In this document: positions 1 to 6,329 of the stretch, piece after piece | Layout: every line of letters begins with the position of its first letter | Position numbering within the stretch: position 1 is the first letter of the stretch | Assembly: GCA_024278345.1 (NCBI GenBank) | Contig: JAJRTK010000351.1 | Coordinates: 1-6,329, forward strand | DNA length: 6,329 nt | Reading direction: 5' to 3' | DNA from: a bacterium | Lineage (GTDB): Bacteria > CSSED10-310 > JAJRTK01 | Notes under the pieces: generated by a model | Database searches by the model: none | What the model saw: only the letters and a program-made list of their open reading frames with translations | What the model was told of the DNA's origin: nothing | Translations under genes and position numbers: made by a program

Positions 1-213
1 AAAAGGAAAACGCGCAGCGCACAAAAATGTGGGCTGGGATCCCGTTGCCCTTTGTTGCAACGGGAAGTTGAGCGAGCTCCCTGGTGGGTGCAGGGCGAAG
101 TCCTGCCAGGGGACGGGGGACAGCGTCCCCGGACGACCTTTGAGCGGAGCGCGGCGCTGCCCGATGCCAAGTTTTTTTTCCGCGACCCATTGTCCCGCTT
201 TGCGTGGATACCC
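1..213 (-). repeat. Structured ~213-bp direct repeat, copy A (left end cut by window)
   Basis: This stretch aligns along its whole length with 5044-5257 in the same orientation, at roughly 85% identity by eye with only a few single-base indels. It begins in an A-rich run and ends at the shared block TTTGCGTGGATACCC, after which the copies diverge abruptly. Stem-loops visible here are CCCGTTGC (41-48) with GCAACGGG (57-64), CCCTGG (79-84) with a downstream CCAGGG, and GGGGAC (116-121) with GTCCCC (125-130). The arm starting at 131 pairs poorly here but well in copy B, so this copy looks partly decayed. Strand is given as - because the third, intron-interrupted copy is best read that way; this is inference. 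Open frames across it are short and I see no protein in it. Confidence 0.85.
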
Positions 214-389
214 GAAAATCGGTAGTGGAACACCTCCAGGAGGGAACTCCCAAGAAGTCGTTTCTTTTTATGGTTGCCTTCCGCTCCCGTCGGCGGCAAT
301 CCGTCCGCCGCCGTCCGCCCGCCATCGCCCCGGGCCTGCTCCCTGCCCTGAAAACATGCCACCGCCAGAAAGCCGGCGCGAGGTCTTCA
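214..389. other. Intergenic region upstream of the radical SAM gene
   Basis: Non-repeat sequence between the end of repeat A and the radical SAM start. It holds a GC-rich perfect inverted repeat, CGGCGGC (291-297) with GCCGCCG (307-313). No T-run follows, so it is not a standard terminator. The radical SAM reading frame stays open back to 204, inside the repeat. The upstream translation is Arg/Pro-rich, unlike the family, so I treat it as untranslated. I see no convincing -35/-10 pair. Confidence 0.5.
380..383 (+). promoter_or_regulatory. Ribosome binding site that sets the radical SAM start
   Basis: GAGG lies six bases before the ATG at 390. The upstream in-frame GTG at 204 sits inside repeat A, so this site supports the internal start. 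Confidence 0.55.
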
Positions 390-1505
390 ATGGTGAATCC
401 CGCTGCGGTCTACCGCGCCCTTCACGATCTCAATAGCTACCTTCCCAAGCGTTTCTTCGATGGTTGGGCTCGACCGCCCTTGCGGGTGGCCTTTATCTTG
501 ACCCACCTCTGCAATCTCCGCTGCACCATGTGCAATACCTGGGGGAAGGAAAATCCCAAAGAGATCCCGAAACAGCTTACCGCCCGGGAAATCGCCCATA
601 TCATCAAACAGTTGCCTCGGTACGCCCTCCTGACGTTCACCGGAGGCGAAATCTACCTTCGCAAGGATTTTCGAGAGATCTTGACCTACGCTTGCAGTCG
701 GAATCGGGTCCATTTGGTGACCAACGGCACCACCGTAGGGCCGGATGATGCCGATGAAATCCTGGATCTTTCCGCATCCAACATGCTCACCAAGGGAATC
801 GTCTCCGTGGGCGTATCCCTGGATGGGCTGAAGGAGTCCCACGACCAGGTTCGGGGTGTCCCCGGGGCTTTCGAGAAGTCCGTGGCTTTCCTGCGATCCC
901 TCGTGGAGAAAAAACGGGATCGCGGCGGCCGCTACCCCATCATTGACATCAAGGTGGTCATCACGCCTGAGACCGTGGAAGTGTTGCCGGATCTCTTCAA
1001 GCTGGGCGACGAAGTGGGGGTCGATCTGGTCTCCTGCCAGATCCTCAACACCCAGAGTTCCAGCTATGGTGTGAAGCACGAGGAAAAGGAGGTCCACCGC
1101 CAGTCGCCGCCGCCGGTTCCGGAGATCGCCCCCGCCGTTATTCGTGGGAGCCTTGAGGCGATGGAGAGCTTGGCCGCCGGGTCGGTGACGCAGCTCCGGT
1201 TCAACCCCAATGCCGGGATCGAGGCCATCGTGGATCACTACCAGAATCGGTTGCGCCTCGCGGAGTTCGATTGCACCACGGTCTGGAGCGTCATGCACGT
1301 GGGGCCTCACGGCGACGTTTTTCCATGCTACAGCTATTCCATGGGCAACCTGAAGGAGAAAAGTGTCAAGGAGGTCTGGAATGGCGACAAATACCGAGCC
1401 TTCCGTAAGGAGCTCAAAAGTGCCGGCGTTTTTCCAGGTTGCGTGGGATGCTGCGTCATGAAGCCCAAGTCCTCCCGCCGTCCATCGGCGGCTAAGGCCG
1501 GTTGA
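390..1505 (+). CDS. Radical SAM protein with C-terminal SPASM/twitch-like cluster domain
   Basis: A 371-residue iron-sulfur enzyme of the radical SAM superfamily, which cleaves S-adenosylmethionine to a 5'-deoxyadenosyl radical. The signature CNLRCTMC gives the three cluster cysteines C41, C45 and C48. TGGE (GGE at 85-87) is the SAM-contacting motif, followed by NGT (112-114) and SLDG (143-146), as in typical radical SAM barrels. The C-terminus has C295, then G308-x4-C313, then C351-x2-C354 plus C355. This resembles a twitch or reduced SPASM domain holding an auxiliary cluster, with fewer cysteines than a full SPASM. ATG 390 is chosen because GAGG lies six bases upstream and the translation before it looks non-coding. 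The stop is followed closely by the methyltransferase, suggesting an operon. The substrate is unknown. No RiPP-like precursor gene is visible nearby, and modification of a glycan, lipid or small molecule is equally possible. Confidence 0.9.
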   Translation: MVNPAAVYRALHDLNSYLPKRFFDGWARPPLRVAFILTHLCNLRCTMCNTWGKENPKEIPKQLTAREIAHIIKQLPRYALLTFTGGEIYLRKDFREILTYACSRNRVHLVTNGTTVGPDDADEILDLSASNMLTKGIVSVGVSLDGLKESHDQVRGVPGAFEKSVAFLRSLVEKKRDRGGRYPIIDIKVVITPETVEVLPDLFKLGDEVGVDLVSCQILNTQSSSYGVKHEEKEVHRQSPPPVPEIAPAVIRGSLEAMESLAAGSVTQLRFNPNAGIEAIVDHYQNRLRLAEFDCTTVWSVMHVGPHGDVFPCYSYSMGNLKEKSVKEVWNGDKYRAFRKELKSAGVFPGCVGCCVMKPKSSRRPSAAKAG

Positions 1506-1525
1506 CGGCCATTGCGAGCCTAACG

Positions 1526-2284
1526 ATGACCAAAGCCCGTGAGCATTATAGCTACCGGTACTACCGCGATCCCAACCGGGCTCGGGAATACGACGGGGAT
1601 CGATATGGCGGGGCGACCGGCCAGTGGTTCCACGAGCTGGAGGTGGAGAGCTATCTCCAGATGATTGCCCCGCGGAAGGGACAGCGGGCTTTGGACCTCG
1701 GGTCCGGGACCGGAAAACTGGCGTTGCCCTTGGAGTCAGCCGGGTGTCGCGTACTGGCCACGGACTCTTCCCCGGCGATGCTCTTGGAAGCTTCCCGAAA
1801 GGCCAAGGAAAGTAAGATCGGGATCGGGTTTGCCGTCATGGACGGCCACAATCTGGCTTTGCCCGATGGCGGCTGGGATATCGTGGTTTGCTCGCGGGTC
1901 CTCATGCACGTCGTGAAGCCGGAGCGCTTGGTGGCGGAGCTTTGTCGGGTAAGCCGTGGGAAGGTGGTCTTCGATTTTCCCCCCTCCAGTAGCTGGAACC
2001 TGTTGAAGCCCTTTCTGATGCGCCTCAAGAAGCGAGGTAACCCCGGCACTCATCCCTACAAGATCTTTGGGGTCCGGTGGGTGAAGCGGGAGCTTCGGCG
2101 GCAGGGCTTCCGGGTCAAAGAGGTGCGGAGACTTCTCTTCTTGCCCTATTTCGTTCACCGCGGGCTGGCGTCGCCCAGGCTCTCTTCGCTTCTGGAAAGG
2201 CTGTTCAGGCTCTTGGGACTGACTAGATTATGGGGGGCGCCGGTGTTGATCTTGGCAGTGAATAGCCCGGTGGTCGGGGAGTGA
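1526..2284 (+). CDS. Class I SAM-dependent methyltransferase
   Basis: A 252-residue cytosolic methyltransferase of the Rossmann-fold class I type (Methyltransf_11-like). Motif I is DLGSGTG (residues 57-63). The acidic residue ending strand 2 is D80 in VLATDSS. A later acidic segment MDGHNLALPDGGWDIVV gives the usual motif II/III region. The C-terminal third is basic (KRELRRQGFRVKEVRRL) and ends in a mildly hydrophobic tail, which may contact membrane or a lipid-linked substrate; this is inference. The start is uncertain. ATG 1526 has a weak GCGAG seven bases upstream. An in-frame TTG at 1502 would overlap the radical SAM stop codon (TTGA) and add eight residues. Either way the gene is tightly linked to the radical SAM gene and probably co-transcribed. 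The methyl acceptor (O, N or C) cannot be told. Confidence 0.88.
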   Translation: MTKAREHYSYRYYRDPNRAREYDGDRYGGATGQWFHELEVESYLQMIAPRKGQRALDLGSGTGKLALPLESAGCRVLATDSSPAMLLEASRKAKESKIGIGFAVMDGHNLALPDGGWDIVVCSRVLMHVVKPERLVAELCRVSRGKVVFDFPPSSSWNLLKPFLMRLKKRGNPGTHPYKIFGVRWVKRELRRQGFRVKEVRRLLFLPYFVHRGLASPRLSSLLERLFRLLGLTRLWGAPVLILAVNSPVVGE

Positions 2285-2416
2285 GCGGCGATGGCACCAG
2301 GGTCTTGCCAGGCTGGCTGGGGGCTGGCGAGGCAAGACGACCATCAGATCCGCCATGGCCAGAGTCATTCGCCATCGAGGGGCCTGGATGCAAAGAAAAG
2401 TGTGGAGCGAACTGTC
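2285..2416 (+). other. 132-nt gap with nested inverted repeats before the glycosyltransferase
   Basis: The only sizeable gap inside the + strand gene group. It contains a perfect 8-bp stem, GTCTTGCC (2302-2309) with GGCAAGAC (2331-2338). This is enclosed by a second inverted repeat, CGATGGC (2289-2295) with GCCATCG (2371-2377). No T-run follows, so it does not look like an intrinsic terminator. It could be a structured leader or simply degenerate sequence. The glycosyltransferase frame is open back to an ATG at 2291, but that translation lacks family resemblance. Confidence 0.4.
2404..2407 (+). promoter_or_regulatory. Ribosome binding site that sets the glycosyltransferase GTG start
   Basis: GGAG lies nine bases before GTG 2417. 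The protein then begins VKILMIAPQP, the normal first beta strand of a GT-B enzyme, which supports this start over ATG 2291. Confidence 0.6.
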
Positions 2417-3604
2417 GTGAAAATCTTGATGATAGCGCCTCAGCCATTTTTTCAGCCACGGGGTACGCCCTTTTCGATTCTTCATCGTCTAGGGGCCTTG
2501 ACGGCGCTTGGGCATGAAGTTGACCTGGTGACTTATCCGCTGGGCGAAGACCGGAGGCTTGAGGGAGTCCGGATCCTTCGTGCTCCGGGAGTTCCCGGTA
2601 TCCGGGAGGTCAAGGTGGGACCGTCGGTGGCCAAGATCCCTTTGGATCTCATGGTGGGCCTGACTGTTCTCAAGAGGTTCCGCCCCAGCCGATACGACGT
2701 TCTCCATACCCACGAAGAGGCCTGTTACCTGGGAGCGATCCTGAGCAGGTTGACCGGTGTGCCGCACATTTATGACATGCACTCGTCCCTGCCGCAGCAG
2801 CTCCAGAACTACGGATTCTTGGCCTACCGCCCCATTCTCTGGTTTGGCCGGGTTCTGGAGCGGTTAGTGATACGGAACAGCCGGGCAATCATCGCGATCT
2901 GCGATTCTTTGCGGGATATCGCCCTGGAGCGGGGAGCCGATCCCCGGGGGCTTTTTTTGATCCACAACCGACCGGTGGATGATGGTGAGACCCCGACTGC
3001 CAGGGAAGTGGCGGCCTTCGTCCAAAGGTTGGAGAAGGAGATGGGTGTACGGCTGGCGGGTCGGGAAGTGGCCCTTTATACCGGGACCTTCGCCAGGAAT
3101 CAGGGGTTGGAGTTGCTCCTGGAGGCGTCTTCCCAGGTTCAGAAGCACCGAAAGTTGGCGACTTTGGTGTTGGTGGGCGGGACCGAAGAGCAGGTGGCGC
3201 GCCTCCGCGGAAAAGCAAAGGAGCTGGGGCTGGCGGAGGGGGTGGCGGTGCTGGGTCGCCGGCCGGTGGAAGAAATGGCGCTCTGGATGGCTGCCGCCAC
3301 CCTGCTTTTGTCACCGCGGACCCACGGAACCAACACCCCCCTGAAAATCTACTCCTATTTGGCCGCGGGCAAGGCGATCCTGGCAACGGATCTTCCCACC
3401 CACCGGCAGGTCTTGGACAAGAGCTTCTCCATGCTGGTGGAGCCCACGGCATCGGGCTTGGCTCAGGGACTCTCCAGCCTTCTGGAAGATGCTCCGCTCA
3501 GGCGAAAGCTGGTCGATGAGGCCCGGAAGGTCGCCGAGGACCGGTACAGTCCAAAGAGGTATCTGGAGCGCCACGTCGCTGTCCTGGAACGTGTCGGTCG
3601 TTAA
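2417..3604 (+). CDS. GT4-type (GT-B fold) glycosyltransferase
   Basis: A 395-residue glycosyltransferase that would move a sugar from a nucleotide-sugar donor to an acceptor. The N-terminal domain starts with KILMIAPQPFF and the acceptor-side loop QPRGTP (RGTP at 15-18). HTHEEA (97-102) and the IYDMHSS strand follow. The C-terminal donor domain starts at YTGTFARNQGLELLLEA (221-237) and continues with VLVGGTEE (from 251), then SPRTHGTNTPLKIYSYLAAG (299-318) and ATDLPTHRQV. The EX7E motif common in GT4 enzymes appears as T305-x7-S313, so both glutamates are replaced. I take this as a subfamily variant, not inactivation, since the surrounding loop is intact. GTG 2417 is chosen for its GGAG and the family-like N-terminus. 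With the radical SAM and methyltransferase genes upstream it suggests a glycan or glycolipid pathway. Donor and acceptor are unknown. Confidence 0.9.
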   Translation: MKILMIAPQPFFQPRGTPFSILHRLGALTALGHEVDLVTYPLGEDRRLEGVRILRAPGVPGIREVKVGPSVAKIPLDLMVGLTVLKRFRPSRYDVLHTHEEACYLGAILSRLTGVPHIYDMHSSLPQQLQNYGFLAYRPILWFGRVLERLVIRNSRAIIAICDSLRDIALERGADPRGLFLIHNRPVDDGETPTAREVAAFVQRLEKEMGVRLAGREVALYTGTFARNQGLELLLEASSQVQKHRKLATLVLVGGTEEQVARLRGKAKELGLAEGVAVLGRRPVEEMALWMAAATLLLSPRTHGTNTPLKIYSYLAAGKAILATDLPTHRQVLDKSFSMLVEPTASGLAQGLSSLLEDAPLRRKLVDEARKVAEDRYSPKRYLERHVAVLERVGR

Positions 3605-3637
3605 TTGTCGGGTGCCGTGGGAAGAAGGGCCGTCGGT

Positions 3638-4984
3638 TTATTTTGGTGGGATCTCCATGAGCTCCTTGACGTCGCCGACGGAAGTCCCTCTTTCGGAGTC
3701 CTCTTGGGCGGTGATGTCGAGCTCCGTGTAGCCGTCGGGGCGGACGAAGATCTTGATCTTCACGTTCTGCTTGAAGTGGGCCGTTTCGCGGTAAAAGCTG
3801 GTTTTGAAGAGGTCAGACTCGTCCTCGTCGGGGATGATGGCGGGTTTGAATCCTTCTTTCTTGGTGGCTGCCAAGATCCAGTCCCGCACCTTTGGAACGC
3901 CCATCTCCAGGAACGCGCCTTGGACGATGGCCTCGCGCCACTGGGTGCCCAGGGGGTTTTGGATGCGGAGCTTGGCGGTGATGTATTGGAGGTCCGGGGG
4001 GATGGGGAAACCGGCGGCCCAGCCTCGGGGAAGCTCCCAGAAATCGATGTCTGGATCGGCGGGATCGACATCGACGATCTGTTTGGCCGGGTCCGCGGCG
4101 GCTTTGGCGGCTTCTTGTTTTTTCTCCATTTCCGCCCGGAGCTTGTCGTTGGCGTCGGAGAAGGTCGCTTGTTGGCCTCGGAGGCGAAAGAGTACCGGCT
4201 GGCCGGGCTCGTTTTGGGCGATGGTGAGCTGGACAGCTTGCCGGCTCTTGTGGCGGGTCCGGATGAAGGCCTGCTGGAAAAGGTCGTCGTCGTCTCTGGT
4301 GAAGAAGGTGGGAACGTTCCAGTGGTCTTCCCGGAGGCGGCCCAGGTACCAGTCTCGGACTTCACGGAGGGAGAGGCCCGGGATCTTCCCCTTGAGCAGT
4401 CCGACGTCCACCAGGGGGATTCCCAGGCTTTCATCGCCCTGTTTCTTGGTTCTCACCTCTTGGATTTGAGCGAAAGGTGGGACCGGGAAGGCGTCGGAGA
4501 AGTCCGGCGGCAGGTGCCAGTAGGGGACTTTTTGCCGGTCGAAGTCGATGATGAGAGGCGCGTCGGGATAGGCCTTGGCAATGACGTAGCAGGTTTCTTC
4601 GTCCATGGTGATGCTGAGAAGGACCACCTGGAGCTTGCCCTTCTGTTTCCGGAAGAAGGTTCCCTCGAAGCGGTTGGGCCGGTCGATGCGGAATCCCTTG
4701 GGGATGGGCCAGCCAGCATTTTTCAGAGCCTGCAGATACCACTCGCGGGTGGACCCCACGGTGGTGCCCTCTTTTTCGCCGTCCATGCGGGCGATCTGGA
4801 GCTCGAGACCGTACTCGACGATCTTTTCCAGGGATGGGCCGGTCCATTGGAACGATCCGTGGGCGACGAAGCCTTGGCCGAACCCTGCCGGGAAGGCGGG
4901 TTGCGCGGTGGCGGTTTCGGGGACAAGAAGAAGGACTGATAGGAGAATCAGCAGGGACGAGGGGGGATGAAGCTGACCGTTCAC
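3638..4984 (-). CDS. Secreted protein of unknown family with three divergent repeat modules
   Basis: A 448-residue protein I do not recognise. Residues 9-21 form a hydrophobic signal-peptide core (LLILLSVLLLV), with a likely signal peptidase I site after ATA27. There is no lipobox cysteine. The mature part has three related modules, roughly 31-138, 158-258 and 318-425. Modules 2 and 3 open with an LP..(F/W)...FP(V/I)PP block. All three contain V/T-R-(E/D)-W-(Y/I)-L at 79-84, 209-214 and 366-371, then an acidic turn, an F-x(2-3)-F segment and a beta-rich stretch (LQVVLLSI, RQAVQLTI, NVKIKIFV). A charged, Ala/Lys-rich helical linker lies at 280-302. GTG 4984 has GGAGG nine bases upstream and overlaps the hydrolase stop as GTGA, so translational coupling is likely. 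The opposite-strand frame here is a shadow. Function is unknown; the protein is probably periplasmic or extracellular. Confidence 0.85.
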   Translation of the reverse strand: MNGQLHPPSSLLILLSVLLLVPETATAQPAFPAGFGQGFVAHGSFQWTGPSLEKIVEYGLELQIARMDGEKEGTTVGSTREWYLQALKNAGWPIPKGFRIDRPNRFEGTFFRKQKGKLQVVLLSITMDEETCYVIAKAYPDAPLIIDFDRQKVPYWHLPPDFSDAFPVPPFAQIQEVRTKKQGDESLGIPLVDVGLLKGKIPGLSLREVRDWYLGRLREDHWNVPTFFTRDDDDLFQQAFIRTRHKSRQAVQLTIAQNEPGQPVLFRLRGQQATFSDANDKLRAEMEKKQEAAKAAADPAKQIVDVDPADPDIDFWELPRGWAAGFPIPPDLQYITAKLRIQNPLGTQWREAIVQGAFLEMGVPKVRDWILAATKKEGFKPAIIPDEDESDLFKTSFYRETAHFKQNVKIKIFVRPDGYTELDITAQEDSERGTSVGDVKELMEIPPK

Positions 4985-6084
4985 GACGTTTCGCCTCCGT
5001 GGAAGAGCTCGGCCATCCACGTAAGGTGGGACAGAACAGAAAAAAAAGGAAAACGCGAAGCGTACAAAAATGTGGGTAGGGATCCCGTTGCCCGCAAGTT
5101 GCAACGGGAAGTGAGCTGGCTCCCTGGTGGGTGCGGGGCGACGCCCTGCCAGGGGACTGGGGACGGAGTCCCCGGACAACCGCCGAGCGGAGCGCGGCGT
5201 TGTCCGAGGCCAAGTTTTTTCCCCGGTGGCCCATTGTCCCGCTTTGCGTGGATACCCAAGTGTTCTGGCCGAACGTGTTGGAGGGTTGGCATTTGGCGTC
5301 TGAGCTCCTGGAGGCGCGTCCGATGGATCGTAGCCACCAGAACTTCATTTTCGCCATCCGGCGCTTCGGCCAGGACGCGGCCCCAGGGATCGACAAGGAG
5401 TGATCGCCCATAGGAAAACCGTTTTGGGCCGTGGCGGCCGAACTGGGCCGCCGCCGCCACGTAGACGACGTTTTCGATGGCTCGGGCCCGGAGGAGTGGG
5501 TGCCAGTGGTCCTTTCCCGTGTAGAGAGTGAAGGCGGCGGGCACCAGAATGAGTTCGGCGCCCTGGAGGGCAAGGTGGCGGTAGAGCTCGGGAAATCGCA
5601 AGTCGTAGCATATCGTCAAGCCCAGCTTGATGGGAGGCAGATCCAGGACCACCGGTTGGTTTCCAGGGGCCACGGTGCTCGACTCCAGGAATCCGATGGC
5701 TTCCTCCACGTGGATGTCGAAAAGGTGGATCTTGCGGTAGGCGCCCCGAAGCTGGCCATCGGGCCCGTAGACGGCGCAGGTGTTGTAGACCTTTCCCGGT
5801 TCGGGGCTTGGTTCCGGAAGGCCGCCCAGGACCAAGTAGATCCCCAATTCCCGGGCAAGCGCGGCCATCCGGGAAGTAATGGGCCCCTGGCCAAGAGTTT
5901 CCGCCAATTCGGCCTTCCTGGCGGCCGGGCCGATGAATGCGAAGTTCTCCGGAAGCACGATCAGTTCAGCTCCCCGGGCCGCGGCTTTCCGGACGCCGGC
6001 CTCTGATCGTTCCAGGTTTTCTTCCACGTCCTGGCGGGAACAGAGCTGGACGAGACCGATTCGAAGGGATTCGTTTTGGATCAT
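4981..6084 (-). CDS. Nit1-like carbon-nitrogen hydrolase with repeat-derived C-terminal extension
   Basis: A nitrilase-superfamily amidase of the Nit1 type, a group that includes deaminated glutathione amidase; the true substrate is not shown here. The catalytic triad is visible: E46 in LPENFAF, K118 in YRKIHLFD and C159 in TICYDLRFPELYR. Other family landmarks are AAFTLYTGKDHWHPLLRARA and SLLVDPWGRV. ATG 6084 is chosen because GGGAGGGG precedes it and MIQNESLRIGLVQL is a normal first strand; an ATG at 6114 has no ribosome site. The family normally ends near RRQMPTLQHVRPEHL (about residue 276). Here the frame runs on to residue 367, through repeat copy B and into the overlapping GTGA start of the next gene. 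The tail is Pro/Gly/Arg-rich and looks like translated repeat, not a domain. The catalytic part appears intact. Confidence 0.9.
   Translation of the reverse strand: MIQNESLRIGLVQLCSRQDVEENLERSEAGVRKAAARGAELIVLPENFAFIGPAARKAELAETLGQGPITSRMAALARELGIYLVLGGLPEPSPEPGKVYNTCAVYGPDGQLRGAYRKIHLFDIHVEEAIGFLESSTVAPGNQPVVLDLPPIKLGLTICYDLRFPELYRHLALQGAELILVPAAFTLYTGKDHWHPLLRARAIENVVYVAAAAQFGRHGPKRFSYGRSLLVDPWGRVLAEAPDGENEVLVATIHRTRLQELRRQMPTLQHVRPEHLGIHAKRDNGPPGKKLGLGQRRAPLGGCPGTPSPVPWQGVAPHPPGSQLTSRCNLRATGSLPTFLYASRFPFFSVLSHLTWMAELFHGGETS
4994..4998 (-). promoter_or_regulatory. Ribosome binding site of the secreted-protein gene, inside the hydrolase reading frame
   Basis: GGAGG on the - strand, nine bases before the GTG at 4984. 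It lies within the last codons of the extended hydrolase frame. It decides the GTG start over longer in-frame versions reaching back to 5179 through the repeat. Confidence 0.65.
5040..5257 (-). repeat. Structured ~213-bp direct repeat, copy B, inside the hydrolase 3' end
   Basis: This is the better-preserved copy, matching 1-213 throughout. Stem-loops are ACGC/GCGT (5053-5056 with 5060-5063), CCCGTTGC/GCAACGGG (5084-5091 with 5101-5108), CCCTGG/CCAGGG (5122-5127 with 5149-5154) enclosing a GGGGC/GCCCT stem (5135-5139 with 5143-5147), GGGGAC/GTCCCC (5159-5164 with 5168-5173), and an 11-bp arm with one bulge from 5174 to 5205. Several A/B differences keep pairing, for example A-T against G-T and G-T against G-C in the inner stem at 5135-5147, or fall in loops. 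The right boundary falls exactly where the hydrolase family normally ends. On the - strand the repeat ends in a short hairpin followed by a T-rich run. Confidence 0.88.
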
Positions 6085-6171
6085 GGCCCCTCCCAAGGTC
6101 TGGAATGAATGCAAAAGGCGGACAACTCTGACATAACACTCATGGAGCCCAATCGAACCGCCCCGGAAGTA

Positions 6172-6205
6172 TGAAAGAAAAAACGCGGAGCGTACGTGAA
6201 TGTGG
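6172..6205 (-). repeat. Partial third repeat copy (C), flanking the group II intron
   Basis: These bases match the A-rich end of repeats A (about 1-33) and B (about 5043-5076): an A-rich run, ACGCGGAGCGT (ACGC and GCGT arms), then AATGTGG. Similarity stops at the inferred intron 3' splice site. Read on the - strand it is the 3' exon, containing a short ACGC/GCGT hairpin followed by TTTTTT. The rest of this copy, if present, would lie beyond the right edge on the far side of the intron. Confidence 0.6.
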
Positions 6206-6246
6206 ATAGGGGTAGGGAAAGCGCATTGGTTTGCGCCTCCCCTCCC
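6206..6246 (-). ncRNA. Group II intron domain VI with bulged branch-point A
   Basis: On the - strand GGGGAGGCGC (6242-6233) pairs over 10 bp (including G-U pairs) with GCGCUUUCCC (6224-6215), with loop AAACCAAU. Below this, A6243 pairs with U6214, A6213 is unpaired, and GGG (6246-6244) pairs with CCC (6212-6210). A6213 lies 7 nt before the inferred intron end at 6206, the normal place for the lariat branch point. Confidence 0.82.
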
Positions 6247-6249
6247 TCC

Positions 6250-6282
6250 GAACCGTACGTGCGGTTCTCCCGCATACGGCTC
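6250..6282 (-). ncRNA. Group II intron domain V (catalytic hairpin)
   Basis: A 33-nt hairpin on the - strand. The lower stem is GAGCCGUA (6282-6275) with UACGGUUC (6257-6250). A two-base CG bulge is at 6259-6258. The upper stem is UGCGG with CCGCA, closing a five-base GAGAA loop. The AGC catalytic triad is at 6281-6279. Sequence and layout match domain V of bacterial group II introns closely; the pentaloop is slightly unusual compared with the common GNRA tetraloop. Confidence 0.9.
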
Positions 6283-6329
6283 TCCAGTCGGTAGGGTCTC
6301 TCATCGAGACTGGCAGGCTGCAGCATGGG

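Follow-up and report, generated by a model that had tools for sequence, protein, structure and literature searches.

A hairpin-reading group II intron with a MITE-like repeat as its probable homing site

The DNA examined here, a window of 6,329 nt that makes up one entire contig (C281) of a 6.06-Mb assembly (550 contigs, 88% complete), carries two copies, A and B, of a structured repeat and, at its far edge, the end of a group II intron followed by what looks like a third copy, C. The question raised by this locus is whether the intron inserted into the repeat, with the repeat supplying the hairpin that guided insertion. We consider it very probable that a retromobile group II intron, choosing its targets in the manner of group IIC, has spread repeatedly into copies of this MITE-like palindromic repeat, and that copy C is one of those it interrupts.

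The intron terminus and its host repeat

The intron lies on the minus strand and leaves the contig at position 6329, with its last 124 nt present (6206–6329) and the 5' exon of copy C lying past the contig end. This terminal segment recurs in nearly identical form at 21 further intron 3' ends of the genome. Domains V and VI, together with the 3' splice site, occupy 6206–6284 on the same strand (Rfam RF00029, 58 bits, E 8e-10), and the intron ends in CTAT at 6206, reading ...CCCTACCCCTAT or, in a longer form, ...TTTCCCTACCCCTAT. The 3' exon starts at 6205, exactly where the earlier note had placed it, with CCACATTCACGTACGCTCCGCG (also given as CCACATTCACGTACGCTCCGCGTTTTTT), and forms the right arm of copy C (6137–6205, minus strand), running from CCACATTCACGTACGC... 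to ...CTCCATGAGTGTTA. Its first 26 nt are as in A and B: in copy B the same stretch runs from 5075 downward with 22 of 26 bases identical, and in copy A it is repeated from 32 downward, in both cases directly after a CCCGTTGC...GCAACGGG-ATCCC(TA/AG)C module. The description of this exon as common to all three copies stands, with the amendment that intron and exon are both on the minus strand and that the right end of copy C (TAACACTCATGGAG..., window 6137 upward) differs from those of A and B, being of a type found in about 20 other copies. The match of the 3' exon to a dispersed repeat is far above chance, the core CCACRTNNNTGTRCGC occurring 264 times in the assembly compared with 0 for the reversed-pattern control.

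The repeat family comprises hundreds of copies in 6 Mb, with several right ends and interchangeable middle modules, namely, a short hairpin, a CCCGTTGC hairpin and a third, CCCGTTGCAATGAAAAGCAACGAG form. Copies bordered by GGGTATCCACGCAAAGCGGGACA and its inverse (GGGTATCCACGC ends) are mostly 219–332 bp long and non-coding. Within the window, copy A (1–213, minus strand) is cut by the contig start and retains the inverted repeat GGGTATCCACGCAAAGCGGGACA at 213–191, as delimited by repeat families D1–D3 and a terminal repeat search, and copy B (5011–5257, minus strand, 247 bp) has terminal inverted repeats (GGGTATCCACGC...) at both ends, with no visible target duplication. Direct duplications of 8 bp flank some copies elsewhere in the genome (GGATATCC at L195, GGCTCCAG at L129 and CCGAGGCT/CCGAGGTT at L117), and one of 9 bp is found at L141. 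The terminal inverted repeats combined with these duplications mark the repeat as a MITE-like element with a palindrome-rich interior. One copy (L080, contig C250) contains a short tandem array of GGGTCACGTTTGCGTGACTCGAA at 1230–1340. Between the repeats of the window (204–6114) lie genes for a radical SAM/SPASM protein, a methyltransferase, a glycosyltransferase and a carbon-nitrogen hydrolase, and, on the minus strand and ending at 3638, for a further protein without a Pfam match.

Junctions and empty sites across the genome

The 3' end of the intron was located at 22 places in the genome, most of them close to a contig end, since the multicopy intron interrupts the assembly. At 21 of these, the intron is followed by a recognisable form of the repeat arm, and the only flank lacking the repeat, on contig C268, belongs to a 5'-truncated intron copy. 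Seven other contigs extend across a 5' junction of the main intron, and in each of them the sequence is CCAGGGAG-loop-CTCCCTGGAC/GTRCGCCTGAAAG (the slash marking the insertion point), with a loop of 4–6 nt and an intron start of the form GTRCG. The 5' end is GTGCG (GUGYG) in C38, in C369, a divergent intron of the same genome, and in G038, a full-length relative from another genome, and the near variant GTACG is found in six copies. Thus, the earlier proposal of intron insertion into a dispersed, structured repeat that itself supplied the hairpin is borne out at 21 of 22 3' junctions and at every visible 5' junction, where the 5' exon is indeed the rest of the repeat with its hairpin; the divergent intron occupies a different hairpin of this repeat.

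The assembly contains no full-length main intron, the copy on C463 being internally deleted, nor any complete intron that encodes an intact reverse transcriptase; the enzyme is represented there by an N-terminal piece on C38 (TIGR04416 at 81 bits) and by damaged copies, including a YADD fragment on C463. In the full-length relative G038, the intron-encoded protein (IEP) has RVT_1 and GIIM domains. Other, unrelated group II introns or their D5–D6 ends were observed on C336 (L060), C190 (L050), C456 (L051) and C357 (L052), that on C336 with a nearly complete reverse transcriptase containing a frame break. Three further loci, L065 (C276, about 1114–1148), L019 (C206, minus strand) and L129 (C445), hold 5'-truncated intron ends or truncated repeat modules. 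These adjoin the right end of a further repeat copy to the base (…GCGTGGATACCC/ or …GACCAAGGCC/), which looks like a loss of their left portions at the ends of repeats.

The joined, empty form of the insertion site, CCAGGGAGnnnnCTCCCTGGAC/CCAC, is present in 222 exact copies in the same genome, and the sequence of one empty copy, on C456, is what results from fusing a 5' exon hairpin to a 3' exon, each of them seen at an intron junction. Neither this site nor the repeat was found in the 59 other genomes searched, 7 of which belong to the same phylum. With about 21 occupied and at least 222 empty sites, occupancy is at most about 9%; in enterobacteria, two class C introns occupied 4% and 11% of terminator-type sites (PMC3522654).

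An intron that follows a hairpin could also have arrived by ordinary group IIC insertion after intrinsic terminators, with the repeat merely happening to act as a terminator. Group IIC introns are known at terminators (PMC4424553), and a small stem leading into a T run (GCGC-TGC-GCGC-TTTTTT) does lie in the repeat, shortly after the insertion point. We nevertheless regard this explanation as improbable, given that the targeted hairpin is followed by ACCCACAT rather than by a T run, that 21 of the 22 insertions are in one repeat family and not at diverse gene terminators, and that relatives of the intron are found at different palindromes, including at least one that is dispersed.

Still less probable, as a general account, is co-amplification, in which a single occupied repeat copy was multiplied by transposition of the repeat or through recombination, in place of many separate insertions. 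The 3' exons (30 nt) fall into 18 distinct sequences among the 22, representing several subfamilies, and differ by 34% on average, compared with a mean difference of 1% in the last 80 nt of the intron. The seven visible 5' exons likewise vary, with five kinds of hairpin loop and several types of left arm. The contrast between exons and intron refutes co-amplification for most copies, indicating that the repeat copies entered by the intron had in many cases diverged beforehand and that the intron was not merely amplified along with one of them. Co-amplification stands for a subset only: six occupied copies (on C32, C424, C532, C542, C548 and C550) share an almost identical 3' exon, beyond which the DNA is unique, and their subfamily is or was mobile, but the common subfamily has many identical copies that are empty.

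Reading of the target site

We looked for the means by which the site is read in the introns with a readable domain I: two copies of the main intron (C38 and C249), the divergent intron on C369, the full-length relative G038 and an intron on a Cupriavidus plasmid. All 5-mers in the aligned 225 nt at the intron 5' end were compared with all those in the final 20 bases of the exon. A single register was conspicuous, with 19 of 20 pairs formed across four introns compared with 13 for the best control, in which exons were swapped between introns. The intron side of this register is a loop that follows CCTGC in a conserved stem and reads GTCCA, GGACT, GGATA or ACTAA, covarying with the five bases at the end of the exon (TGGAC, AGTCC, AATCC and TTAGT, respectively). 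The predicted consensus fold places the loop at the tip of the stem, which has one compensatory change. On the strength of this covariation, we assign the register to EBS1–IBS1, with GTCCA as EBS1 in the only two main-intron copies in which it can be read. No second register exceeded the control level of 13 in the same 5-mer scan, which thus gives no indication of an EBS2. The divergent intron on C369, which is in the same genome and the same repeat family, follows a different hairpin of the repeat (CTGGGGACtccGTCCCCAGTCC/), and its EBS1 matches that hairpin.

The geometry of the sites is also consistent. At 13 of 14 junctions of this intron lineage, the exon ends in a hairpin of 5–10 perfect pairs, the 3' arm of which stops 2–5 nt before the insertion point, with the loop 10–12 nt away; additional junctions in a second genome show the same arrangement. 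Among random 30-mers from the introns' own loci, 1.2% have a stem of at least 7 pairs ending within 6 nt. In the solved complex of the E. rectale IIC intron, a stem of 9–12 bp precedes a spacer, after which come a 4-nt IBS1 and IBS3 (PMC10190682). Unlike in that complex, the stem here runs into IBS1, and hence its base would have to open.

Taken as a mechanism, these features would have the intron ribonucleoprotein recognise the hairpin in the repeat DNA, presumably as a single-stranded substrate, with EBS1 (GTCCA) pairing with the last five bases of the 3' side of the hairpin (TGGAC). Reverse splicing would then take place between CTCCCTGGAC and CCACAT, and the reverse transcriptase of the intron would copy the intron in. 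By analogy with the other copies, the 5' exon of copy C is probably the short hairpin as well. The presence of more than 200 such sites in the genome is in line with repeated spread of the intron into already diverged repeat copies.

The earlier note had taken copies A and B as empty target sites, a view that does not hold, since both have another middle module: that of copy A (33–84, minus strand; alignment to other copies and module count) ends in ATCCCAGC, and that of copy B (5076–5127, minus strand; module count) reads CCAGGGAG...CCCGTTGC/GCAACGGG...ATCCCTAC. The genuine empty sites are the 222 copies with the short hairpin. The A/B form, CCAGGGAG...AACTTCCCGTTGCAAC...GGGCAACGGGATCCC(AG/TA)C, has 82 exact matches genome-wide and is present at none of the observed 5' junctions. 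The middle modules are hence interchangeable, with the short-hairpin module alone being the observed landing site of the main intron. We therefore rejected the A/B module as a target: whereas TGGAC pairs with EBS1 at all five positions, the final five bases of the module, CCAGC in A and CCTAC in B, do so at two of five at most. That the intron of copy C nonetheless sits behind the CCCGTTGC/GCAACGGG hairpin, as its shared 3' exon with A and B and the position of its 5' exon past the contig end would allow, is highly improbable in view of this mismatch and of the occurrence of that module at 0 of the 7 visible junctions.

The assignment of the intron to class C, also suggested earlier, fares differently in its two parts. 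Targeting is IIC-like, with a hairpin, a short EBS1–IBS1 pairing and no EBS2 signal, but the catalytic triad of domain V is AGC (GAGCCG/CGGUUC) in the main intron, in G038 and in the Cupriavidus relative, and not CGC as in the IIC introns of O. iheyensis and E. rectale (PMC3669008, PMC10190682). In G038, the open reading frame ends 13 nt before domain V, so that the IEP has no space for an endonuclease domain. The reverse transcriptase of G038 scores 151 and 146 bits against those of the E. rectale and GsI-IIC introns, 112 against T.el4h and 91 against LtrA, a comparison confined to solved structures, of which classes D, E and F have none; the short C38 piece scores best against LtrA. As judged from sequence, then, the intron appears to work like a group IIC intron; we do not claim formal membership, given the AGC triad.

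Relatives and known systems

Introns of the same lineage in G003, a genome of the same phylum, follow other hairpins (GCGGGCCnnnGGCCCGCGCACC, GCGGACCnnnGGTCCGCGCACC, CCGGCCTGAAGGCCGGCATC and GGGGCGCGATGAATCGCGCCCCTG). The core of GGGGCGCGATGAATCGCGCCCCTG occurs 121 times in G003 (at most 1 mismatch) and 0 times in the genome of the window, and empty forms of the GCGG hairpins are present in the same contigs as the occupied ones. The EBS1 of the G003 intron on C52, GATGC, forms 4 of 5 pairs with its own exon and 5 of 5 with that of the C186 copy (GCATC; read by eye). The G003 palindrome GGCGCGATGAATCGCGCC, with 121 occurrences at up to 1 mismatch, is often arranged in inverted pairs about 83 bp apart. 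In the G038 genome, the insertion palindrome is present only 6 times, which supports the hairpin rule and only weakly the involvement of a dispersed repeat. Specialisation on multicopy palindromes is, by these sequence comparisons, supported in two genomes and weakly so in a third. To a broader reading we give credence and doubt in about equal measure: the lineage would be specialised on dispersed MITE- or REP-like palindromes as opposed to terminators or attC sites, with EBS1 re-tuned in each genome to an abundant palindrome and the repeat serving as a distributed, mostly intergenic homing site.

The hairpin-reading group II intron with a MITE-like repeat as its homing site appears to be real and is well supported at the level of sequence. 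Here, one genomic parasite, the intron, would use another, the mobile repeat, as a landing site, which illustrates a route by which an intron can reach more than 20 copies through sites supplied by a different mobile element. The natural series of EBS1–IBS1 pairs at a constant hairpin geometry (loop 10–12 nt) should be useful for working out the rules of site choice in hairpin-reading introns. RmInt1 is a group II intron that homes in an insertion sequence (IS). IS-homing introns, such as E.c.I4 (PMC3522654), have in common with the present case the homing of a retroelement into copies of another mobile element, but they recognise a long linear target through IBS1 and IBS2 in a transposase-bearing IS, as opposed to a hairpin and five bases in a non-coding miniature element.

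The target types listed for bacterial group II introns are homing sites, terminators and attC sites (PMC4424553), to which the present case would add dispersed MITE/REP-like palindromes. With group IIC introns at terminators (PMC4424553; Di.ze.I1 and So.gl.I1, PMC3522654; E. rectale, PMC10190682), the intron shares a hairpin directly upstream, a single short EBS1–IBS1 pairing, no EBS2 found and no endonuclease domain, as read here in the IEP of the relative. It differs from them in the multicopy MITE-like palindrome without a T run, in a stem that abuts or overlaps IBS1, and in the AGC triad. Group IIC-attC introns (PMC7923331) similarly insert in or directly after a palindrome of a mobile or recombining repeat, but their consensus, TTGT/T, does not fit the site described here, which has IBS1 TGGAC and IBS3 C, with no integron or attC context seen.

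The nearest precedent that we found in the open-licence literature comes from Pseudomonas, where dispersed REP palindromes also serve as insertion targets of mobile elements and where a P. putida group II intron adjoins REPs in 2 of its 9 copies (PMC1525189). That association is occasional and involves mostly IS elements, whereas in the genome of the window it extends to 21 of 22 intron copies, with target matching at the level of individual base pairs.
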